DNA of 64,000 bases from Gammaproteobacteria bacterium. Its GTDB lineage: Bacteria > Pseudomonadota > Gammaproteobacteria > Pseudomonadales > Azotimanducaceae. The DNA lies in assembly GCA_009837185.1 (NCBI GenBank), contig VXUA01000071.1:62001-126000 (forward strand), in the 5' to 3' direction. Below the pieces are notes generated by a model. That model ran no database searches and was not told the origin of the DNA. It worked only from the letters and a program-made list of their open reading frames with translations. Every line of letters starts with the position of its first letter. Position 1 is the first letter of the stretch. This document shows, in pieces, positions 18,580-33,900 of the stretch. The position numbers were made by a program, and so were the translations under genes.

Positions 18580-18604
18580 AAAAACTCTCAAGACACTTGA
18601 GAGT
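18580..18604 (-). terminator. Rho-independent terminator of copA
   Basis: A perfect 9-bp inverted repeat ACTCTCAAG (18584-18592) and CTTGAGAGT (18596-18604) with a 3-nt loop is followed on the reverse strand by a T run (18580-18583). The copA stop codon at 18588-18590 sits inside the stem, so the last codons of copA double as terminator. On the forward strand there is no T run after the stem. Confidence 0.8.
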
Positions 18605-20978
18605 GCCACCGTTTTAACAACAACGAGTTGGTCACCACACTCACGCTCGACAATGCCATTGCGGCACCAGCAATTGTAGGATCAAGGTATCCTAATACCG
18701 CTAACGGTATCATCACAACGTTGTAGATAAAAGCCCAGAAAAGGTTTTGTCTTATCTTCCTGAAGGTACGAGTACTGATATCCAAGGTTGCTGCTACGAG
18801 TCGAGGATCGGAGCGCATCAACGTTACTGGTGCGACTTCCATTGCGATGTCGGTTCCGGAACTCATCGCAATACCAAGCCGTGCTTGTGCTAGCGCGGGA
18901 GCATCATTGATGCCATCTCCAACCATAGCCGCCGCGTTCCCTTCGGTCTGAATCGCTTCAACTCTCTCTACTTTGGTTTCAGGAGTCTGCCGATAAGCAT
19001 AAGAATTAATACCGAGAGTATGCGCTAGACGTTCAGTGACCTCTTTGCTGTCGCCACTAAGTATGTGAACCTGAACTTTCCTTTGTTGAAGCTTCTCGAC
19101 TGCCTCGCGAGATGTTGGACGTTCGATATCTACGAAAACAAACTCCGCGACCACTTGATCCGCAAACAGCAGCCACACAGTACTTTCAAACTCGTCCGTC
19201 GCTACTGGTTCGTGTCCAAATCGTCTTAGTAAACGATCGTTACCCAAAGCACAAGTAACACCGTCTACACTTCCACTAACACCCTCACCGACATATGCGC
19301 GAAACTCTGTTGGATTAACGATATCTATACCCTGCTCCTTCGCATGGTCGAGAAACGCTTTTGCGATGGGATGTTCACTTAGAGACTGTAGCGCGACGGC
19401 AGCTTTAAGATAGGTGTCGTACAACTTTACGTTTCCTTCACGCACCACCTGACCTCGAACAAATGAAGGCTTACCGTGTGTTAGTGTGCCTGTTTTGTCA
19501 AACACTACTTCTTGTACGCGATGGGCGTGCTCTAGGGCTTCAATATCGCGAAACAAAATCCCTGCGCGTGCCGCAGTTCCCGTTCCGGTAATCACTGCGG
19601 TCGGTGTCGCTAAACCTAGGGCACAAGGACAAGCAATGACCAAAACCGACACAGAATTGATAAGTGCATTTTCGAAGTCACCTACGATGCTCCAAGCAAT
19701 TAGGGTGATTAATGCGATGAGAATAACAACGGGAACAAAAAATCCACTGACTTTGTCCACAAGGCGCTGAATATCAGTTTTTCCAACTTGCGCTTGTTGT
19801 ACAAGTCGTGCTATTCGATTTAAGGTTGTGTCGTCCCCAACTTTTGTGACACGCACCAAGAGATGGCCGTCTAAATTTACCGCACCTTCATACACTTCGT
19901 CGCCAATTCGTCGGTGCACCGGATTACTTTCGCCGGTTATTAGAGATTCGTCAGTGTGTGCTTCACCTTCAATCACCTCTCCATCGGCCGAGATTCTTTC
20001 CCCGGGAATGCACGTTATTACTTCGCCCAGTTCAAGTAGTTCAGTTGGTTTTTCGATAGTCTCGCCAGTTTCAGTTCGAACTCGCACCACTCGGGGTCGT
20101 AAGCTCAGAAGTTCGCGGATTGCAGAAAACGTTCTTCTTTTCGCACGCGTTTCTAAATATTTGCCCCAAAGCACAAGCGTAATAATCACTGCTGCGGACT
20201 CGAAGTACATTAGCCCCTGCGCAGCTTCGCCATGCTGAATCATGAGATACCAGCTGTAGAGGTATGCCGAAGTCGTACCTAGGACAACCAAGACATCCAT
20301 GTTCGCGCTGCGATTTCTGAGCGCGTTGAAGGCTCCAATATAGAATTTTCGACCAAACCAGAACTGAACCGGTGTCGCAAATAGCACTTCAGCTGCGGGC
20401 ATCCAATGAAATGCACGCCAACCAATGAATTGCGCAATCATTTGTAAAATCAATAACGACGAAAAGAACGAGGCTAATAACGCGGATCGACGTTCTTTGG
20501 TAACTTCAGCCTGAAACTGTGCTGCTTCATCATCGGGCTCCGGTCGCGTCAACAAACTAAAGCCAGCGTCTCGAACTCGACTTATTAAATCTCGTTCTGT
20601 CACCAGGCCTTTGATAGTTCGGACTGTTGCATTCTCCGTTGCAAAATTCACCTCTGCAGTCTCAATACCGGGAACTTTGAGTAGTGCGTCTTGTATCCTA
20701 CTTGCGCAAGCGGTACAAGACATTCCTCCAACTTGGTAGGTCTGTGTATCAACGCCCACGTCAAACCCAGCACGACGAACTACTCCTGCTAAGTCTTTCA
20801 CACGTAGGAGTTTTGGATCGATATGCAAATATGCCTTCTCAGCTGCAAGATTTACCGCAACATCTAACACCCCGCGTTCTTTCTTGAATGCAACTTCTAA
20901 TCGTTCAACACAAGAACCGCAAGTCATGCCGGTGATGTTGAAGCTAAGCTGTTGCGAGGCACTAACTGACGTGCTCAT
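18588..20978 (-). CDS. copA: Copper-exporting P1B-type ATPase
   Basis: The 796-residue pump has two N-terminal heavy-metal domains with GMTCGSC (Cys20, Cys23) and GMSCTAC (Cys88, Cys91). It then has the membrane CPC motif in VIACPCALGLATP, the phosphorylation site FDKTGTLTHGK, the SEHPIA histidine-proline motif, GDGINDAP, and two C-terminal helices. All mark a P1B-1 Cu(I) exporter at the inner membrane. The gene lies six bases after the oxidase-subunit-III-like gene, so the two are probably one transcript. That could mean a role in supplying copper to oxidase maturation rather than only detoxification, which is inference. Confidence 0.95.
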   Translation of the reverse strand: MSTSVSASQQLSFNITGMTCGSCVERLEVAFKKERGVLDVAVNLAAEKAYLHIDPKLLRVKDLAGVVRRAGFDVGVDTQTYQVGGMSCTACASRIQDALLKVPGIETAEVNFATENATVRTIKGLVTERDLISRVRDAGFSLLTRPEPDDEAAQFQAEVTKERRSALLASFFSSLLILQMIAQFIGWRAFHWMPAAEVLFATPVQFWFGRKFYIGAFNALRNRSANMDVLVVLGTTSAYLYSWYLMIQHGEAAQGLMYFESAAVIITLVLWGKYLETRAKRRTFSAIRELLSLRPRVVRVRTETGETIEKPTELLELGEVITCIPGERISADGEVIEGEAHTDESLITGESNPVHRRIGDEVYEGAVNLDGHLLVRVTKVGDDTTLNRIARLVQQAQVGKTDIQRLVDKVSGFFVPVVILIALITLIAWSIVGDFENALINSVSVLVIACPCALGLATPTAVITGTGTAARAGILFRDIEALEHAHRVQEVVFDKTGTLTHGKPSFVRGQVVREGNVKLYDTYLKAAVALQSLSEHPIAKAFLDHAKEQGIDIVNPTEFRAYVGEGVSGSVDGVTCALGNDRLLRRFGHEPVATDEFESTVWLLFADQVVAEFVFVDIERPTSREAVEKLQQRKVQVHILSGDSKEVTERLAHTLGINSYAYRQTPETKVERVEAIQTEGNAAAMVGDGINDAPALAQARLGIAMSSGTDIAMEVAPVTLMRSDPRLVAATLDISTRTFRKIRQNLFWAFIYNVVMIPLAVLGYLDPTIAGAAMALSSVSVVTNSLLLKRWHSQVS

Positions 20979-20984
20979 ACAAAA

Positions 20985-21599
20985 CTACGTTGAAACAAAG
21001 AGAGCTAAGATGACAACCCACACCAGAAGCAAAAAGTGCCAGTAAATCGCACATAACTCGACACTCAGCCGGATGTGTGCATAGTCCCCCTCGCGGTCGC
21101 GCATCCGCCACAAAGCACGACACCACGCAATCAGACCGCCGAATAAATGTGCTGCGTGGAGTGCTGTGAGGACATAAAAAAAGGCGTTGGAAGGATTTCG
21201 TTGTGCAGCATATCCAAGCTCGATCAGTTGCCACCACACAACTATTTGTAACACTAAAAACACGACGGTTAAGACACCGCCAATCAAGAAAACAAGCATT
21301 CCGTCTCTTTTACTGTTGACGAGTCGTCGAGAATATTCCAAGGCCATGCTCACTGCCACTAAGACGATACTATTGACCCAGAGTAAGAACGGCTCAGGCA
21401 TTGGTACCCAATCGGTCGCTAGCGCGATGCGCATGTGAGTAGCCGCGAACAACAGAAAGAAAACACTTCCCACGACGCATAGGAAAACATACAACGCTAC
21501 CTTCCGATCGTGAGTTCGAAAAGATTTCGTGTGCAGCGACTCCACACGCTCATCTGTTTCCACCCAAGGTTTTTCTGTTAAACGACGAAAAATGCCCAT
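20985..21599 (-). CDS. Heme-copper oxidase subunit III-like protein
   Basis: The 204-residue protein has five hydrophobic helices and the subunit III pattern: LFAATHMRIA, FLLWVNSIVLVAVSMALEYSRR, a central pair ending in LHAAHLFGGLIAW, and the last helix CAIYWHFLLLVWVVILALF with YWHFLxxVW, the usual subunit III signature. No subunit I or II gene is adjacent. It may be a stand-alone subunit of an oxidase encoded elsewhere. It is followed by copA after six bases. ATG at 21597-21599. Confidence 0.85.
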   Translation of the reverse strand: MGIFRRLTEKPWVETDERVESLHTKSFRTHDRKVALYVFLCVVGSVFFLLFAATHMRIALATDWVPMPEPFLLWVNSIVLVAVSMALEYSRRLVNSKRDGMLVFLIGGVLTVVFLVLQIVVWWQLIELGYAAQRNPSNAFFYVLTALHAAHLFGGLIAWCRALWRMRDREGDYAHIRLSVELCAIYWHFLLLVWVVILALFVST

Positions 21600-28236: not shown

Positions 28237-28707
28237 ATGTTTAACAGTGTAAAGGCTTTGTTTGCAAAGGCTGACTCCCAACACACATTAGAGCTTGAAG
28301 AACAAGATTTAGTTCCAATCGCTGCCGCAATGGTTCTACTAGAGGTTGCTTGGGCTGATCACATATTACAACCTGAAGAAAAAGATCTCATTGAGACCTC
28401 ATTAACAAAACTATACGGTTTTGATCAAACACAAGCGAGCAGGGTCCTTAAGCAAGCAGAGAGTGAACACAAACAGTCGACAGGTCTTCACAAGTTTACC
28501 AGGACCTTGAATGAGCAATTAGATCTAGATGAAAAGATCACACTATTGACTCAACTATGGCGAATGAACAGCCTAGAAAGCACTTCGTTCCATTATGAAG
28601 AGCACGTGATTCGCAAAATCGCAGATCTGTTACACTTACGTCATTCAGAATTCATCAAAGCGAAGTTAGACGCGAGACGAACTCAATCGACAGAAAGGTC
28701 GGTTTAG
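28237..28707 (+). CDS. TerB-like (tellurite-resistance fold) protein
   Basis: A 156-residue all-helical soluble protein with the TerB/DjlA-like pattern: VPIAAAMVLLEVAWADHILQPEEKDLIETSL and, later, LDEKITLLTQLWRMNSLESTSFHYEEHVIRKIADLLHL. The D/E residues after WADH and the final EHVIRKIADLL match the metal-binding helices of this family. Despite the name, most members have no proven tellurite role. It is convergent with the hvfC-like gene, overlapping it at the stop codons by four bases. Confidence 0.75.
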   Translation: MFNSVKALFAKADSQHTLELEEQDLVPIAAAMVLLEVAWADHILQPEEKDLIETSLTKLYGFDQTQASRVLKQAESEHKQSTGLHKFTRTLNEQLDLDEKITLLTQLWRMNSLESTSFHYEEHVIRKIADLLHLRHSEFIKAKLDARRTQSTERSV

Positions 28708-29468
28708 TTTTTATGGGTTGTTAATATCACTCCTCGTTTATTGAATACCTCAATCGTGGGCACTAACTGATTGAACAGTAATTCGTGAGCGACATCAAAT
28801 TCTTCACTGAGTTGAGTTGTCAGCTTACTAAGCGATAGAGGGTGTTCCAGCACTTCCAACATTCGGAATGTGCGCACGTTGGTTCCTAAAACTTCAACTT
28901 GATCGTTGCGATCGCGAAATGCGATTAACCATGTCGGTTGTTTCGGTTGTTGGCTGTTCCACGTAGCTGGAGTCAGTTTATGCACCGGCCATTGATAAGA
29001 CAGTAATCGCACAGTGGATGATCGCTGGACACAGGTAGCATCCTTATAGATATCGAGATTGTTGCACCGCGGCGCATCTGGTGCAAGTCGTAGTTGCATT
29101 CTCATCGCATCCAAGTGACACATTTCACTCATGAACGGATACTCGGTACGATCTCGATCTGAATTCTCCAAGTACTCGACGAAAGCTAAAGGAATGTCTT
29201 TGAAATAAGGTGATGAGCACGAATGTTCTCGCATGAATCCTCGAATGAGCTTGTCCCATTGATCGTCATCGACGAAAGGACGAAACGACTTAAACGATTT
29301 CGCGCAGAACGACGCCAAGTTATTAAAAAAGAGACGTTTGTAAATGTCCATGCGACGTTGCTCAATACCTGGCGGTGCGGTATTGTGCTCAGGGTCTCGA
29401 ATGTAATTAGCGAACTGCTGTTGAATTCGTTGATAGTCCGGAAAATCGTCCCGAACGTTACTATCCAC
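28704..29468 (-). CDS. hvfC: HvfC-like DUF2063 partner of the MNIO maturase
   Basis: The 254-residue protein has the DUF2063 N-terminal domain (about 10-100: FANYIRDPEHNTAPPGIEQRRMDIYKRLFFNNL, then FAKSF-like CAKSFKSFRPFVDDDQW), a linker, and a C-terminal winged-helix-like part (VRTFRMLEVLEHPLSLSKLTTQLSEEF). HvfC/BufC proteins bind the precursor leader and are needed with the DUF692 enzyme. The start is GTG at 29466-29468; it overlaps the hvfB-like stop (TAG at 29461-29463) by eight bases, so the pair is coupled. This is the last gene of the three-gene operon; the DoxX-like hvfX that often follows is absent. Confidence 0.85.
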   Translation of the reverse strand: MDSNVRDDFPDYQRIQQQFANYIRDPEHNTAPPGIEQRRMDIYKRLFFNNLASFCAKSFKSFRPFVDDDQWDKLIRGFMREHSCSSPYFKDIPLAFVEYLENSDRDRTEYPFMSEMCHLDAMRMQLRLAPDAPRCNNLDIYKDATCVQRSSTVRLLSYQWPVHKLTPATWNSQQPKQPTWLIAFRDRNDQVEVLGTNVRTFRMLEVLEHPLSLSKLTTQLSEEFDVAHELLFNQLVPTIEVFNKRGVILTTHKN

Positions 29469-30324
29469 TATCGACCTGCTCCGCTTCGGTGGTCACGTAT
29501 TGTTGTTGGTACTCTTTGATCCGAGAAACCTCCGATATTAAATCGGGGATCGCCGGAAAGTTAAAGTCTCGTTCTAATAGTGTTGGGATCGTGCCATATC
29601 GCCGGTAGACATGTTCAAGTAATTGCCAAACCGGATCAGCCACTGCAGCCGCGTGTGTATCAATCCTCAAATCTTCTGCTTCTTTAAAGTGTCCAGCGAT
29701 GTGAATATAGGTGATTCTTGAGATCGGTAGAGAATCGATGAACTCGAAAGGATCGTATCCAAAGTTCACACTGTTCACGTAGGCATTGTTGACATCGAGT
29801 AAGAGATTGCAGTCCGCTTCCGTGAGCACGGCGTTAATGAAATCACTTTCGTTGAGTTCCTGACCCGGAGCAGCGTAGTATGAAACGTGTTCAACTGCAA
29901 TTTTTCGCTCCAGCACCTCTTGTACCGTACGAATTCTGGATGAGACATGTCGCACCGCATCTTCGGTGAAAGGAATTGGCATCAGATCATAGAGATGTCC
30001 ATGATCACTACATGCACTTAAATGGTCCGAATAGAATGAGATGTCGTGTTTGTCGAGAAATTCTCGAACACTCTCAAGAAAATCTAAATCTAAGGGGCTA
30101 GGACCGCCGATCGAGAGCGACAGACCATGGCAAACAATGGGAAATCGTTCCGCGTATGTCCGAAATTCCCGCCCAAAACGACCACCGACATCGATCCAAT
30201 TTTCTGGTGCGACTTCCCAGAAGTCGACATTCTCATTGATAAGTTCCGGATGCTCCCGTAGAGCGCGAAACATACCACGACGTAGGCCTAGACCGGCACC
30301 TCGAATAGATAGCTGTTGGGGCAC
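29461..30324 (-). CDS. hvfB: HvfB-like DUF692/MNIO iron-dependent RiPP maturase
   Basis: The 287-residue TIM-barrel enzyme has the multinuclear non-heme iron signature: EVAPENWIDVGG near residue 40, His66 in VCHGLSLSIGG, Asp100-His101 in YSDHLSA, Glu145-His146 in VEHVSYY, Asp177 and Asn179 in LLLDVNNAYVN, His208 in YIHIAGH, Asp222 and His224 in DTHA, and Glu251 in LLERDFN. HvfB-type enzymes oxidise cysteines in EGxCG motifs of a precursor to oxazolone-thioamide groups. The start is GTG at 30322-30324 with no visible Shine-Dalgarno, only seven bases after a terminator-like T run. Expression of the enzyme is therefore probably kept well below the precursor. Confidence 0.9.
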   Translation of the reverse strand: MPQQLSIRGAGLGLRRGMFRALREHPELINENVDFWEVAPENWIDVGGRFGREFRTYAERFPIVCHGLSLSIGGPSPLDLDFLESVREFLDKHDISFYSDHLSACSDHGHLYDLMPIPFTEDAVRHVSSRIRTVQEVLERKIAVEHVSYYAAPGQELNESDFINAVLTEADCNLLLDVNNAYVNSVNFGYDPFEFIDSLPISRITYIHIAGHFKEAEDLRIDTHAAAVADPVWQLLEHVYRRYGTIPTLLERDFNFPAIPDLISEVSRIKEYQQQYVTTEAEQVDSG

Positions 30325-30329
30325 AAGTG

Positions 30330-30379
30330 AAAAACGGACGAATTGCAGTTCCGAATTAAGCCCGGAACCACAATTCGTC
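30330..30379 (-). terminator. Hairpin plus T run between precursor and maturase genes
   Basis: GACGAATTG (30337-30345) pairs with CAATTCGTC (30371-30379). After a symmetrical CA/CA internal loop, GTTCCG (30348-30353) pairs with CGGAAC (30363-30368), closing on a 9-nt loop. On the reverse strand the stem is followed by CG and TTTTT (30330-30334). This is a strong Rho-independent terminator shape placed inside the operon, just before the hvfB start. It should let only a fraction of transcripts into the maturase genes. Confidence 0.75.
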
Positions 30380-30417
30380 AGTCAAAACGAAAGTTTGTAT
30401 TGAGGGAAAGAAGGAGA

Positions 30418-30765
30418 TTACTCCTCAGTGGTTTCCTCTTCTTCTTCCTCGTCGGCGTCTTCGTCGTCTTCGTCGGCGTCGTCTTCTTCTTCTTCTTCAC
30501 CGCATTGACCTTCGCCACACCCGCCTTCGTCTTCTCCACATTCACCTTCATCGTCACCGTCTTCATCGTCTTCACCGCATTGGCCTTCGCCGCACGAGGC
30601 TTCTTCGTCGTCTTCAGCGGCTAAAACATCGATATCGTCGAGAGACTCTGCTACGAATAGATTGTTAGCATCTTCGTCCATAGAAGCACTGAGGGCTACA
30701 CCGAGAGAAGCGGCCATAAACGCACCAACGCCAACAATGGCAGGCTTGGATTCATTAATTTTCAT
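30418..30765 (-). CDS. hvfA: HvfA-like RiPP precursor, very acidic, five Cys-Gly motifs
   Basis: The 115-residue precursor starts MKINESKPAIVGVGAFMAAS, an N-terminal signal peptide (hydrophobic core to about residue 28). A linker ending near LAAEDDEE leads to the core. All five cysteines (58, 63, 76, 83, 88) are followed by glycine: EASCG, EGQCG, EGECG, EGGCG and EGQCG. Four match the EGxCG target motif of HvfB-type MNIO enzymes. The remainder (about residues 90-115) is almost pure E and D. The modified peptide should be exported to the periplasm, where HvfA/bufferin-type products bind copper; that function is inferred from relatives. A GAGGA ribosome site lies seven bases before the ATG. Confidence 0.88.
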   Translation of the reverse strand: MKINESKPAIVGVGAFMAASLGVALSASMDEDANNLFVAESLDDIDVLAAEDDEEASCGEGQCGEDDEDGDDEGECGEDEGGCGEGQCGEEEEEDDADEDDEDADEEEEEETTEE

Positions 30766-30848
30766 AGAAAAATCCTCACAAGGGTTAGGGGTTTTGTAAC
30801 TAGAAACTGCCTTGTAACAGTTTCAATCTACATTGCAATTAGTAGAAG

Positions 30849-30892
30849 TGACAATATTATTCACAAATAATTCCATTATTCCTCCATTATTC
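30849..30892 (-). promoter_or_regulatory. hvfA promoter region with phased AT-rich repeats
   Basis: ATTATT occurs at 30856-30861, 30875-30880 and 30886-30891, and its complement AATAAT at 30866-30871. The starts are 10, 9 and 11 bp apart, so they face the same side of the helix. They lie directly upstream of a -35-like TTGTCA (30849-30854, reverse strand), which is 18 bp from TAGATT (30825-30830). A 7-bp hairpin (30803-30809 with 30818-30824) overlaps the expected transcript start. This looks like a multi-site operator; the regulator is not identifiable. Confidence 0.45.
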
Positions 30893-30965
30893 AGTCAGAA
30901 TCAGAGAATTCGCAAAAAGTCCCAGAAATTTAAAGGCCAGATTCCTAATTAGAGTAGAAGGGTAA

Positions 30966-33900
30966 CTATTTTGGGTGTTCCCACTGTGCAAATGCTTGTT
31001 CCAAGCGCTGAGGAGAGAGTTTTGTTCGAGTCTTTAATTCCTGACAGAATAGCGACAGTCGATACTCTTGAAGTAAGTGAAACAATCCGTCTGCATAGGG
31101 GTGTTGACGCTGGACGCCAAGGGAAGCCAGTCGTTCTTGCCAACGTGTTATTTCCCTCGTCGCAAGTACGTCCTTTTTCAACTTCCCGGAGAGCCGATCT
31201 AACCGAGCCTTGATACCGTCTAGATAACGAGGTAAATCAGGCATGCGTTCACTAGAAAATGAAAACGGAAAGGTCGAATCAAAGAGGCTATTGAGTTGTT
31301 GCTTGACGTCTTCTCGAGATTCCTGAAATACAGGCTTCTCTAAAGACTCTACACGAAGCATCAAGTGATGTCGCATTGACAATGCGTTCGACACTAGATC
31401 CATCAGATGTAGGGCATTGGGTATGAAATATTGACGTTGAATTTCGATTACTTGCCGAAACTCTTCTTCACTTTCTGGCAATGTTGGAGGAGGAAAAAAC
31501 GTGTCGCGAGCAGCGGTCAAAAAAAGCAACTGTCGAAACTCATGAATATTCCCAAGAGTGGTCGAGTACAACTGCAATGCTCGGTCATTGTTAAACTGAG
31601 ACGATAAGTAATTTATTGTCTCGTGTTCCCGTATAAGTGCTAGCCGACACATCCCTCTTAATGATCCTTGGTACTGGTCTCGCTCATCGAAACCTACCAG
31701 TATGTCAACGCAATCTCCGCGATCGACTAGCACAGGGAAAAGCACGATCGTTCCCTTCGGACTTTTTACTGTAATAGTGCGAGTTAGCCCAGATGGTGGA
31801 AATGTCTTCAATCCCTGCTGCTCAAACTGCGCTTTGAACGATTCATCGAAATGATTCTCAAGAAGGTGTTGAACACGTTGACGCACAGCAGACAAGTTTC
31901 GTCCTTGTGCGATCACGTTTTGCTTTTGATCAATAGTTTGAACGTTCACGATCAGATGTTTTGATACATCTTCTAAACGCCACACAGACGTAGCTATTTC
32001 CACATGAAATAAAGCTCGTATTCTTTGCGACAACACTTCTGCGAGATGGCCGACGCGATATTGACTGTCCTGTAATAGAAGAGGCACGAGTTCCCCGATC
32101 TTATCGGGTATGGGAGCTAGTTGCTTTCGAAACTGTTTTGGAAGTCGACGCAACAATTCAATGCACTTTTCTTCAAAGAATCCTGGAACAATCCATTCCA
32201 AGCTCGATTGCTGGAGCTTTGGTAAATCCGCGAGTGGCACGCGAATCGATACTCCATCGTCTTCTCGACCGGGACCAAATTTGTATCGTAGAGAAAATCG
32301 ATCAGAGTTGATTTCCAACTCTGCTGGATACGCATATTCGCGAATGGAATAGCTAGGGTGATGCAGAAAGTCTTCGCGTTGAATAAGCAAATCATTTCGT
32401 TGCTTTGCATCGGCAGTGCGGTACCATCGTAGGAACGACATTCGATCACAGACTTCATTCGGAACCTTTTTACGATATAGCTCGACAACGCCGTCTTCGC
32501 CTAAGACAATGTCTGTTCGTCGTTCCTTCGATTGTGTTTCCAGCAGGGATTCTCGCAGTTCGAAATTTGTACTAACTTCCTGAATTTCAATGTTGGCTTC
32601 ATCGCGAACCAGCGCGTGGGTCAAAAACAGTTCTCGAGCTGCACAGTGATCAAAGTCTTTGAGTCTAACGTTACGGTTTTGAACAATGGGTAAACCGTAC
32701 ACGGAAATGTCTAAGTAGGTGCAACTATCGTTTTTAATTGAATCCCAATAGTGATCGTGTACCCGTGTACTCACAAACGAACGAGCGTAGGGCTCAACCC
32801 ATGTTGGTTTGATTTCGGCTAGACCACGTGCATAGACTCTCGAAGTTTCAACAATTGTTGCGGCAACCACCCACTTCGGCTTGCGCTTTGCAATGACTGA
32901 GCCTGGAAACAACGAGAACTTGAGATTCCGGGCACCCTGATAAGAAGAATCGTCTAAACGAAGTCCTAGAAAACTCAACGACCCACTCAATACGGATTTG
33001 TGGATCCTGTCGAAACTTGCTACCTTCTCGTTGATATTCATTCGCAAGCGTTTGCACGTTAGCACAAGTTGCCGATGTAGAGCGCGCCATTCCAAGTATC
33101 GTTGCGTGGAGACAAAGTGCCGCTCAAGAACACGCTTTAGCTGACTCCATGAATGGTCGTCCCTATGTCCTTCTATCCATTCCCACAAATTGAGATAGGA
33201 CAAAAAGTCCGATTTGGGATGCCGGAATTGTTGGTGGGCTTCATCCGCAGCCTGTTGCTGTTTAAATGGTCGGAGAAATGGGTCTTGTGCTGCTAATGCA
33301 GAAACAATAACTAGTAGTTCCTTTAGTGCGCGCTGTTGATTCGCCTCGATTAGCATTCGAGCAAGTCTAGGATCGACAGGAATTTGCACCATTTGTCTGC
33401 CAAGATCGGTAATCTCACCGCGCTGCAAAGCACCCAATTCATGCAACAGTCTCGTCGCCGCAGCGACGGCTCTGTCGTCGGGACGATTTATAAAGGGAAA
33501 TGTAGCAATCTCACCAAAGCCGAAAACAACCATTTGCAACACGACGGCCGCAAGATTAGTCCGCATGATTTCTGGATCGGTGAATGCTTCTCTCGATAGT
33601 AAATCCGACTCCGAGTAGAGACGAAAACACACTCCTGGAGCTAAACGACCACATCGGCCAGCTCGCTGATTCGCACTGGCTTGGGATATAGCTTCGATGG
33701 GCAATCTCTGAATTCGAGAACGCACACTAAAGCGGCTAATCCTCGCCTGCCCAAAATCAATTACATATCGAATATTTGGAACGGTGAGACTGGTTTCCGC
33801 GACGTTGGTCGCAAGCAAGATGCGACGTTTTGACGACGTCGAAAAAATCTTGCGTTGCTCTGAGGCAGGTAATCGAGCATATAGAGGTAGCACCTCAAAC

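Follow-up and report, generated by a model that had tools for sequence, protein, structure and literature searches.

Introduction

Enzymes of the MNIO type act with PME1 partners to turn Cys residues in EGxCG-like motifs into 5-thiooxazole, and the peptides so modified bind copper (PMC13097082, PMC13419390, PMC12452194, PMC12538549). This assignment is recent: the family modification was revised to 5-thiooxazole from oxazolone-thioamide (PMC13097082, PMC13419390), and the original prediction for the locus described here, which had spoken of oxazolone-thioamide sites, is superseded in that respect. Among the described systems, the oxazolin cluster HvfA-HvfB-HvfC(-HvfX) of Haemophilus influenzae combines a signal-bearing precursor with repeated EGxCG motifs (six sites), the MNIO HvfB and the RRE protein HvfC, with HvfX in the genome. 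Fontiphorin, from Fontimonas thermophila, is made by a minimal A-B-C cluster (FonABC) whose precursor FonA has seven sites in EGKCG-type repeats, with Lys before Cys. The substrate-contacting residues reported for FonB are R15, R16, D249 and F250; at position 3 of the motif FonBC accepts Ala, Arg and Thr and is severely impaired by Phe or Glu; and copper-loaded fontiphorin aggregates (PMC13097082). Other Buf_EGKCG/oxazolin precursors consist of a short EGKCG-type part and a further C-terminal part, an EF-hand_5, and the bufferins (DUF2282, Buf_6/12Cys) have an MNIO and a DUF2063 partner related to those found here, whereas their precursor families differ. Here we describe a captophorin-type precursor that is real and under constraint and whose charge type is unusual, and the lineage of bacteria in which that charge type occurs.

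Results

The window, a 64,000-nucleotide stretch of a gammaproteobacterial genome, contains an hvfA-hvfB-hvfC operon on its minus strand. The first gene, hvfA (30418..30765, (-)), has an ATG start and encodes a precursor peptide of 115 aa. Its N-terminus resembles a Sec signal, as judged from the sequence without a predictor, and codons 1-28 (30682..30765, (-); MKINESKPAIVGVGAFMAASLGVALSAS) probably form a signal peptide that would be cleaved after SAS. A leader or linker follows (codons 29-54; 30604..30681, (-); MDEDANNLFVAESLDDIDVLAAEDDE) that is kept in the closest relatives and is probably contacted by HvfC. The core (codons 55-89; 30499..30603, (-)) holds five E(G/A)xCG motifs, with Cys 58, 63, 76, 83 and 88 in EASCG, EGQCG, EGECG, EGGCG and EGQCG, respectively; this motif read-out bears out the original prediction that all five Cys are of the E(G/A)xCG type and four exactly EGxCG. 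When residues 29-115 were shuffled 20,000 times, no arrangement had more than two such sites. After the last CG comes an acidic tail (codons 90-115; 30421..30498, (-)) in which 22/26 residues are D or E, much as had been noted for the region past the last Cys, and whose composition is kept in relatives while its length varies by indels. Residues 29-115 as a whole include 48/87 D/E and no K, R or H, and the charge computed for pH 7 is -48.4, so that the earlier description of an extremely acidic core was apt. Compared with H. influenzae oxazolin, the window precursor has no Lys in its motifs, a strong D/E tail and five sites instead of six, and its hvfX is unlinked.

By domain model, hvfA belongs to the HvfA family, if marginally. 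The protein reached 22.5 bits against the KCGExKCG domain model NF050137 (cut-off 19.5), and we call this match marginal because a genome-wide search of the window's own genome with the same model at E <= 1 did not list hvfA; against the full-length HvfA equivalog NF050188 it scored 19.1 bits, well below the cut-off of 95. Position 1 is Glu and Cys is followed by Gly at 5/5 sites, and Lys stands before Cys (EGKCG) at 0/5: Ser, Gln, Glu, Gly and Gln stand in place of the usual Lys. The proposal of an HvfA-like precursor thus holds at the domain level, and HvfB and HvfC adjoin it.

These two genes lie downstream of hvfA, hvfB first, and both exceed their NCBIfam equivalog cut-offs. hvfB (29461..30324, (-)) encodes an MNIO-type maturase (PF05114, E 8.4e-100; NF003818, 422.6 bits versus a cut-off of 360; structure match 3bww, E 1.9e-78), and hvfC (28704..29468, (-)) a DUF2063/RRE partner protein, or PME1 (PF09836 and PF22106; NF050145, 216.8 bits versus 142; 3dee, E 2.7e-12). 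A bufferin system was considered and rejected, the window HvfB scoring 252.6 against the BufB equivalog, below its cut-off of 310. As in the fontiphorin cluster, the arrangement is a minimal A-B-C, and the contact residues reported for FonB appear to be shared: D249 and F250 of FonB probably correspond to D253 and F254 of the window protein by way of an RDF motif, and R15, R16, D253 and F254 are kept in 107, 108, 108 and 107, respectively, of 108 distinct HvfB sequences. The order hvfA-hvfB-hvfC is found in the six closest genomes and four genus sisters. Two further arginines, R20 and R23, are present in the six closest HvfB proteins and rare elsewhere, R23 occurring also in the four genus sisters. 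We rejected a co-adaptation of HvfB charge to acidic substrates, since the two did not correlate over 85 pairs (Spearman rho -0.15 and -0.16, p 0.16 and 0.15).

The neighbours scanned around the operon (LpxC, TerB and a CxxCxxCC protein) are not copper genes. About 8 kb away, the window also encodes a P-type metal ATPase of 796 aa with two HMA stretches (18588-20978, (-)), beside which lies a 204-aa ORF (20985-21599) with no Pfam match. The hvfX gene had been thought missing; this was right for the surroundings of the operon and wrong for the genome (2.77 Mb, 86 contigs), whose one DoxX match is an hvfX (G000:C3:181076-181579; NF050144, 186.1 bits versus a cut-off of 80) on contig C3, with hvf on C27. 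DoxX matches exceeded the cut-off in 17/18 genomes of the genus and HvfB in 18/18, and the best DoxX lay on a contig other than that of hvfB in these 17, except in G063, where the two are about 379 kb apart. In a sample of 120 genomes from the window's bacterial family, 55 had HvfX over the cut-off and 48 of those also a strong HvfB match (the seven HvfX genomes without a strong HvfB row were excluded from the linkage count). In 11/48 the starts of hvfX and hvfB are no more than 5 kb apart, and in 37/48 this is not so, which makes unlinked hvfX the common state in this sample; in G001, which belongs to the 37, another HvfX match lies close to an additional, weaker MNIO match.

A codon alignment was made of five complete hvfA copies, that of the window and those of four relatives (L002, L003, L040 and L005). 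In the core, the window copy differs from the four others by 6-10 synonymous and 1-7 nonsynonymous changes (dN 0.012-0.092, dS 0.38-0.97, dN/dS about 0.02-0.13). None of the five copies has lost any of the five CG sites, in-frame indels alter the stretches between CG sites and the tail, and the tail codons that were compared give a dN of 0-0.10. Because core dN is far below dS, the frame is very likely translated and under purifying selection. A chance low-complexity frame would agree with the GAA/GAC-type repeats of this DNA and the long open frames present on either strand, but the NF050137 score above cut-off, the low dN relative to dS and the adjoining hvfBC leave this reading practically no weight, and we regard it as already refuted. 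A decaying substrate, poorly modified as its position-3 residues no longer fit HvfB, would agree with the severe impairment of FonBC by position-3 Glu (PMC13097082) and with a relative (L127, in G150) that combines four EGECG sites with an internal stop in HvfB. Low core dN/dS, the five CG sites kept in the five complete sequences compared and the presence of HvfB throughout the genus argue against decay, which we consider improbable. At the L127 locus itself (G150:C115:1246-2067), the HvfB frame is interrupted by a TGA and adjoins a precursor with four motifs, all EGECG; the stop could be an assembly error or the sign of a decayed system.

The charge of the precursor was placed among relatives by combining 80 named loci, 30 family-search loci and genus searches, which gave 91 unique cores once duplicates had been collapsed. 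Fifteen loci had no precursor by the rule used (L025, L045, L048, L052, L064, L065, L067, L072, L128-L133 and L135), and L009, L020, L090 and L098 were left out for masked stretches (N) in the precursor. Over the 566 CG sites of the 91 precursors, position 1 is Glu at 557, and position 3 is Lys at 412, Ser at 64, Glu at 28, Gln at 22 and Gly at 13; all 28 sites with Glu at position 3 (EGECG) come, in this sample, from the window's bacterial family. The window core, at -0.61 net charge per residue, is equal lowest among the 91 with L004, whose precursor begins at a contig edge and is partial; the value of -0.34 for L040 is an artefact of a core start set too far upstream. The idea that five sites would mean a high copper capacity finds no support here, five being an ordinary or low number: the sampled cores carry up to 16 Cys, and as many as 58 are reported in PMC12452194.

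On a tree built from 85 HvfB proteins, the cores below -0.3, 26 in number, all map to a single branch of 35 rows (support 100/91), the remaining 50 rows holding none; this placement was read off the drawn tree, with the acid label counted only against other labelled rows. Rows of the acidic branch belong to the window's bacterial family wherever the family is known. A 19-row branch of Alcanivorax and relatives, with near-neutral cores, lies beside the 36-row branch that contains the acidic one, and cores not in the acidic branch mostly have a charge near zero and commonly three residues after the last CG. The trend is graded: the genus sisters L006-L008 carry EGECG-EGKCG pairs, and in the six closest precursors Lys before Cys occurs at no site (window, L002, L003 and L004) or at one (L005 and L040). 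Low-Lys position 3 without acidity is found elsewhere, in methanotrophs and some Alloalcanivorax, and loss of Lys and acidification are therefore separable. The bin names of the relatives (COS, RHO, SB) would, at a guess, point to sponge metagenomes; MAGs from Coscinoderma, Rhopaloeides and Ircinia are described in PMC8163846.

Linkage of precursor and maturase varies within the genus. Six members (G007, G040, G124, G153, G155 and G156) have no precursor beside hvfB, and at the two such loci that were inspected, L148 (G124) and L150 (G040), hvfB lies directly 3' of a long helicase-like ORF, taken by eye to be hrpA. Five of the six have a precursor with EGECG, EGKCG and EGQCG motifs at a separate locus (L140-L143 and L145), several of these unlinked hvfA genes having, by eye, a GC-rich hairpin with a T run downstream. 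The sole precursor candidate in G040 falls below the NF050137 cut-off (16.5 bits). This model exceeds its cut-off in 10/18 genomes of the genus, the window's own not among them, and thus undercounts Lys-poor precursors.

A halophile-like, salt-in proteome was rejected as the cause of the acidity: the median pI is 5.4 over the 46 ORFs in the window that reach 150 aa, a set from which hvfA, being shorter, was computed apart. Among these 46, only the S16-like protein stands out (-0.23 net charge per residue; the next lowest is -0.09). This ribosomal protein S16 (159-1043, (-); 294 aa, PF00886 at residues 8-68) ends in an extension of 212 residues with 85 D/E and 7 K/R; in the genus its frame is 153-307 aa long in 17/18 genomes, and the 11 of these 17 loci that could be resolved and read all have the acidic tail.

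Such an extension raises the prospect that the tail and the Lys loss of hvfA are lineage drift, part of a general tendency to grow acidic low-complexity extensions that has nothing to do with metal handling, the Cys motifs still working as in other captophorins. That S16 in the genus bears an acidic C-terminal extension suggests that the hvfA tail may not serve copper, and the acidic DNA of hvfA is a short-unit repeat that varies by indels. Several points run counter to drift: the compared tail codons are conserved, the loss of Lys falls inside an otherwise constrained core, the acidic cores sit in one branch of the HvfB tree, and proteins of the window are not generally acidic. We judge drift a real possibility, if one that falls short of even chances.

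The polyanion might instead bind divalent ions (Ca, Mg or Cu(II)) weakly, as a second site in addition to the thiooxazole Cu(I) sites and a simple counterpart of the EF-hand fusions known in this family. Polyacidic stretches bind divalent ions non-specifically, which counts against a second site of this kind, and we rejected an EF-hand in hvfA, as neither EF-hand_5 nor any other Pfam domain was found in it at E up to 1, unlike in the Buf_EGKCG fusions. In favour are the acidic composition itself (48/87 residues, none basic) and the precedent of the EGKCG/EF-hand_5 fusion precursors, for which a link to calcium is suggested (PMC12452194). On this evidence we hold a second metal site to be rather unlikely.

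Between hvfA and hvfB lies a 19-pair hairpin followed by CGTTTTT (30337..30379, (-)). None of 200 shuffles was as stable (z = -5.76), and over six sequences 91.2% of cells are paired, versus at most 46.5% when the pairing is slid. Three pairs are changed on both sides across the six sequences; because covariation is not above that of column shuffles (of 500 such shuffles, 50 to 163 score at least as high), the case for the hairpin is built on stability and pairing conservation. It is a candidate partial terminator, processing or mRNA-stability element, and if it stops part of the transcripts or shields the 3' end of hvfA, more precursor than enzyme would be made. The longer hvfA-hvfB gaps of many relatives also hold stable folds, with folding energy growing with length, and in many Alcanivorax relatives the gap is only 4-24 nt. 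Gap length and acidity were not convincingly related over 84 precursors (rho -0.21, p 0.054), and an Rfam search of 30300-31000 returned one match, below its gathering score.

Upstream of hvfA, a region kept in the closest relatives by sequence comparison (30766..30885, (-)) contains a palindrome and a promoter-like pair. Pairs like the latter (30854-30825) are no more frequent there than by chance. The palindrome AATAATNNNATTATT (30866-30880) is the sole match in the window at up to one mismatch (0.14 expected), is conserved in L002 and L003, with slight change in L040, and is a possible operator. A 17-codon ORF with GGAGG before its start (30823-30876, (-); MELFVNNIVTSTNCNVD) has a nearly identical counterpart in L002 and in L003; the L040 frame lacks a stop at that point and continues into hvfA. 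The ORF possibly encodes a leader peptide.

Discussion

We think it quite probable that hvfA encodes a captophorin precursor, that is, an oxazolin/fontiphorin-type 5-thiooxazole metallophore, that is modified on most of its five Cys. By homology with the characterized systems, HvfC would engage the leader of the precursor, and HvfB would oxidise Cys next to Gly in the E(G/A)xCG motifs to 5-thiooxazoles in the cytoplasm; the modified peptide would then be exported, probably by Sec, and act in the periplasm as a protective buffer that binds Cu(I).

The five sites may not be equal as substrates. Those with Ser, Gln and Gly before Cys are plausible substrates by the FonBC rules, these three residues being outside the FonBC variants cited. 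EGECG is more doubtful because FonBC processes position-3 Glu poorly (PMC13097082), whereas this residue is native in the window precursor, and the site may stay unmodified. Since EGECG recurs in the window's bacterial family, either HvfB has adapted to it or such sites stay unmodified there.

As for the charge, the normally balanced Lys/Glu repeat has turned polyanionic in this lineage as Lys disappeared from position 3 and a D/E tail grew. We suggest that the polyanionic charge may stop copies of the copper-loaded peptide from coming together and so keep them in solution. This role is a tentative guess, which we nonetheless prefer to weak divalent metal binding or lineage drift. With similar reserve, one may picture a separate polyanionic captophorin class within one family, in which HvfB has shifted to acidic or neutral residues at position 3, EGECG included, and the D/E tail is functional, either for solubility or as a second mode of metal binding. 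We found no description of Lys-free acidic precursors in the captophorin/MNIO literature covered (supplements and most subscription papers lay outside its scope), and searches for the EGQCG, EGECG, EGGCG and EGSCG motifs returned only unrelated papers. The word 'acidic' is absent from the main text of PMC12452194 and occurs once in PMC13097082, where it concerns FonB variants.

The lineage offers natural precursors that grade from Lys-rich to Lys-free, each with an enzyme that has presumably followed. The maturing enzyme would read Glu at position 1 and be sensitive to position 3; the substrate rules inferred from FonBC are thereby testable with natural pairs, and the same natural series lends itself to asking whether the aggregation that fontiphorin is reported to undergo with copper is under the control of charge. 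More generally, a Lys-free, acidic precursor raises the question of how the maturing enzyme recognises its substrate.
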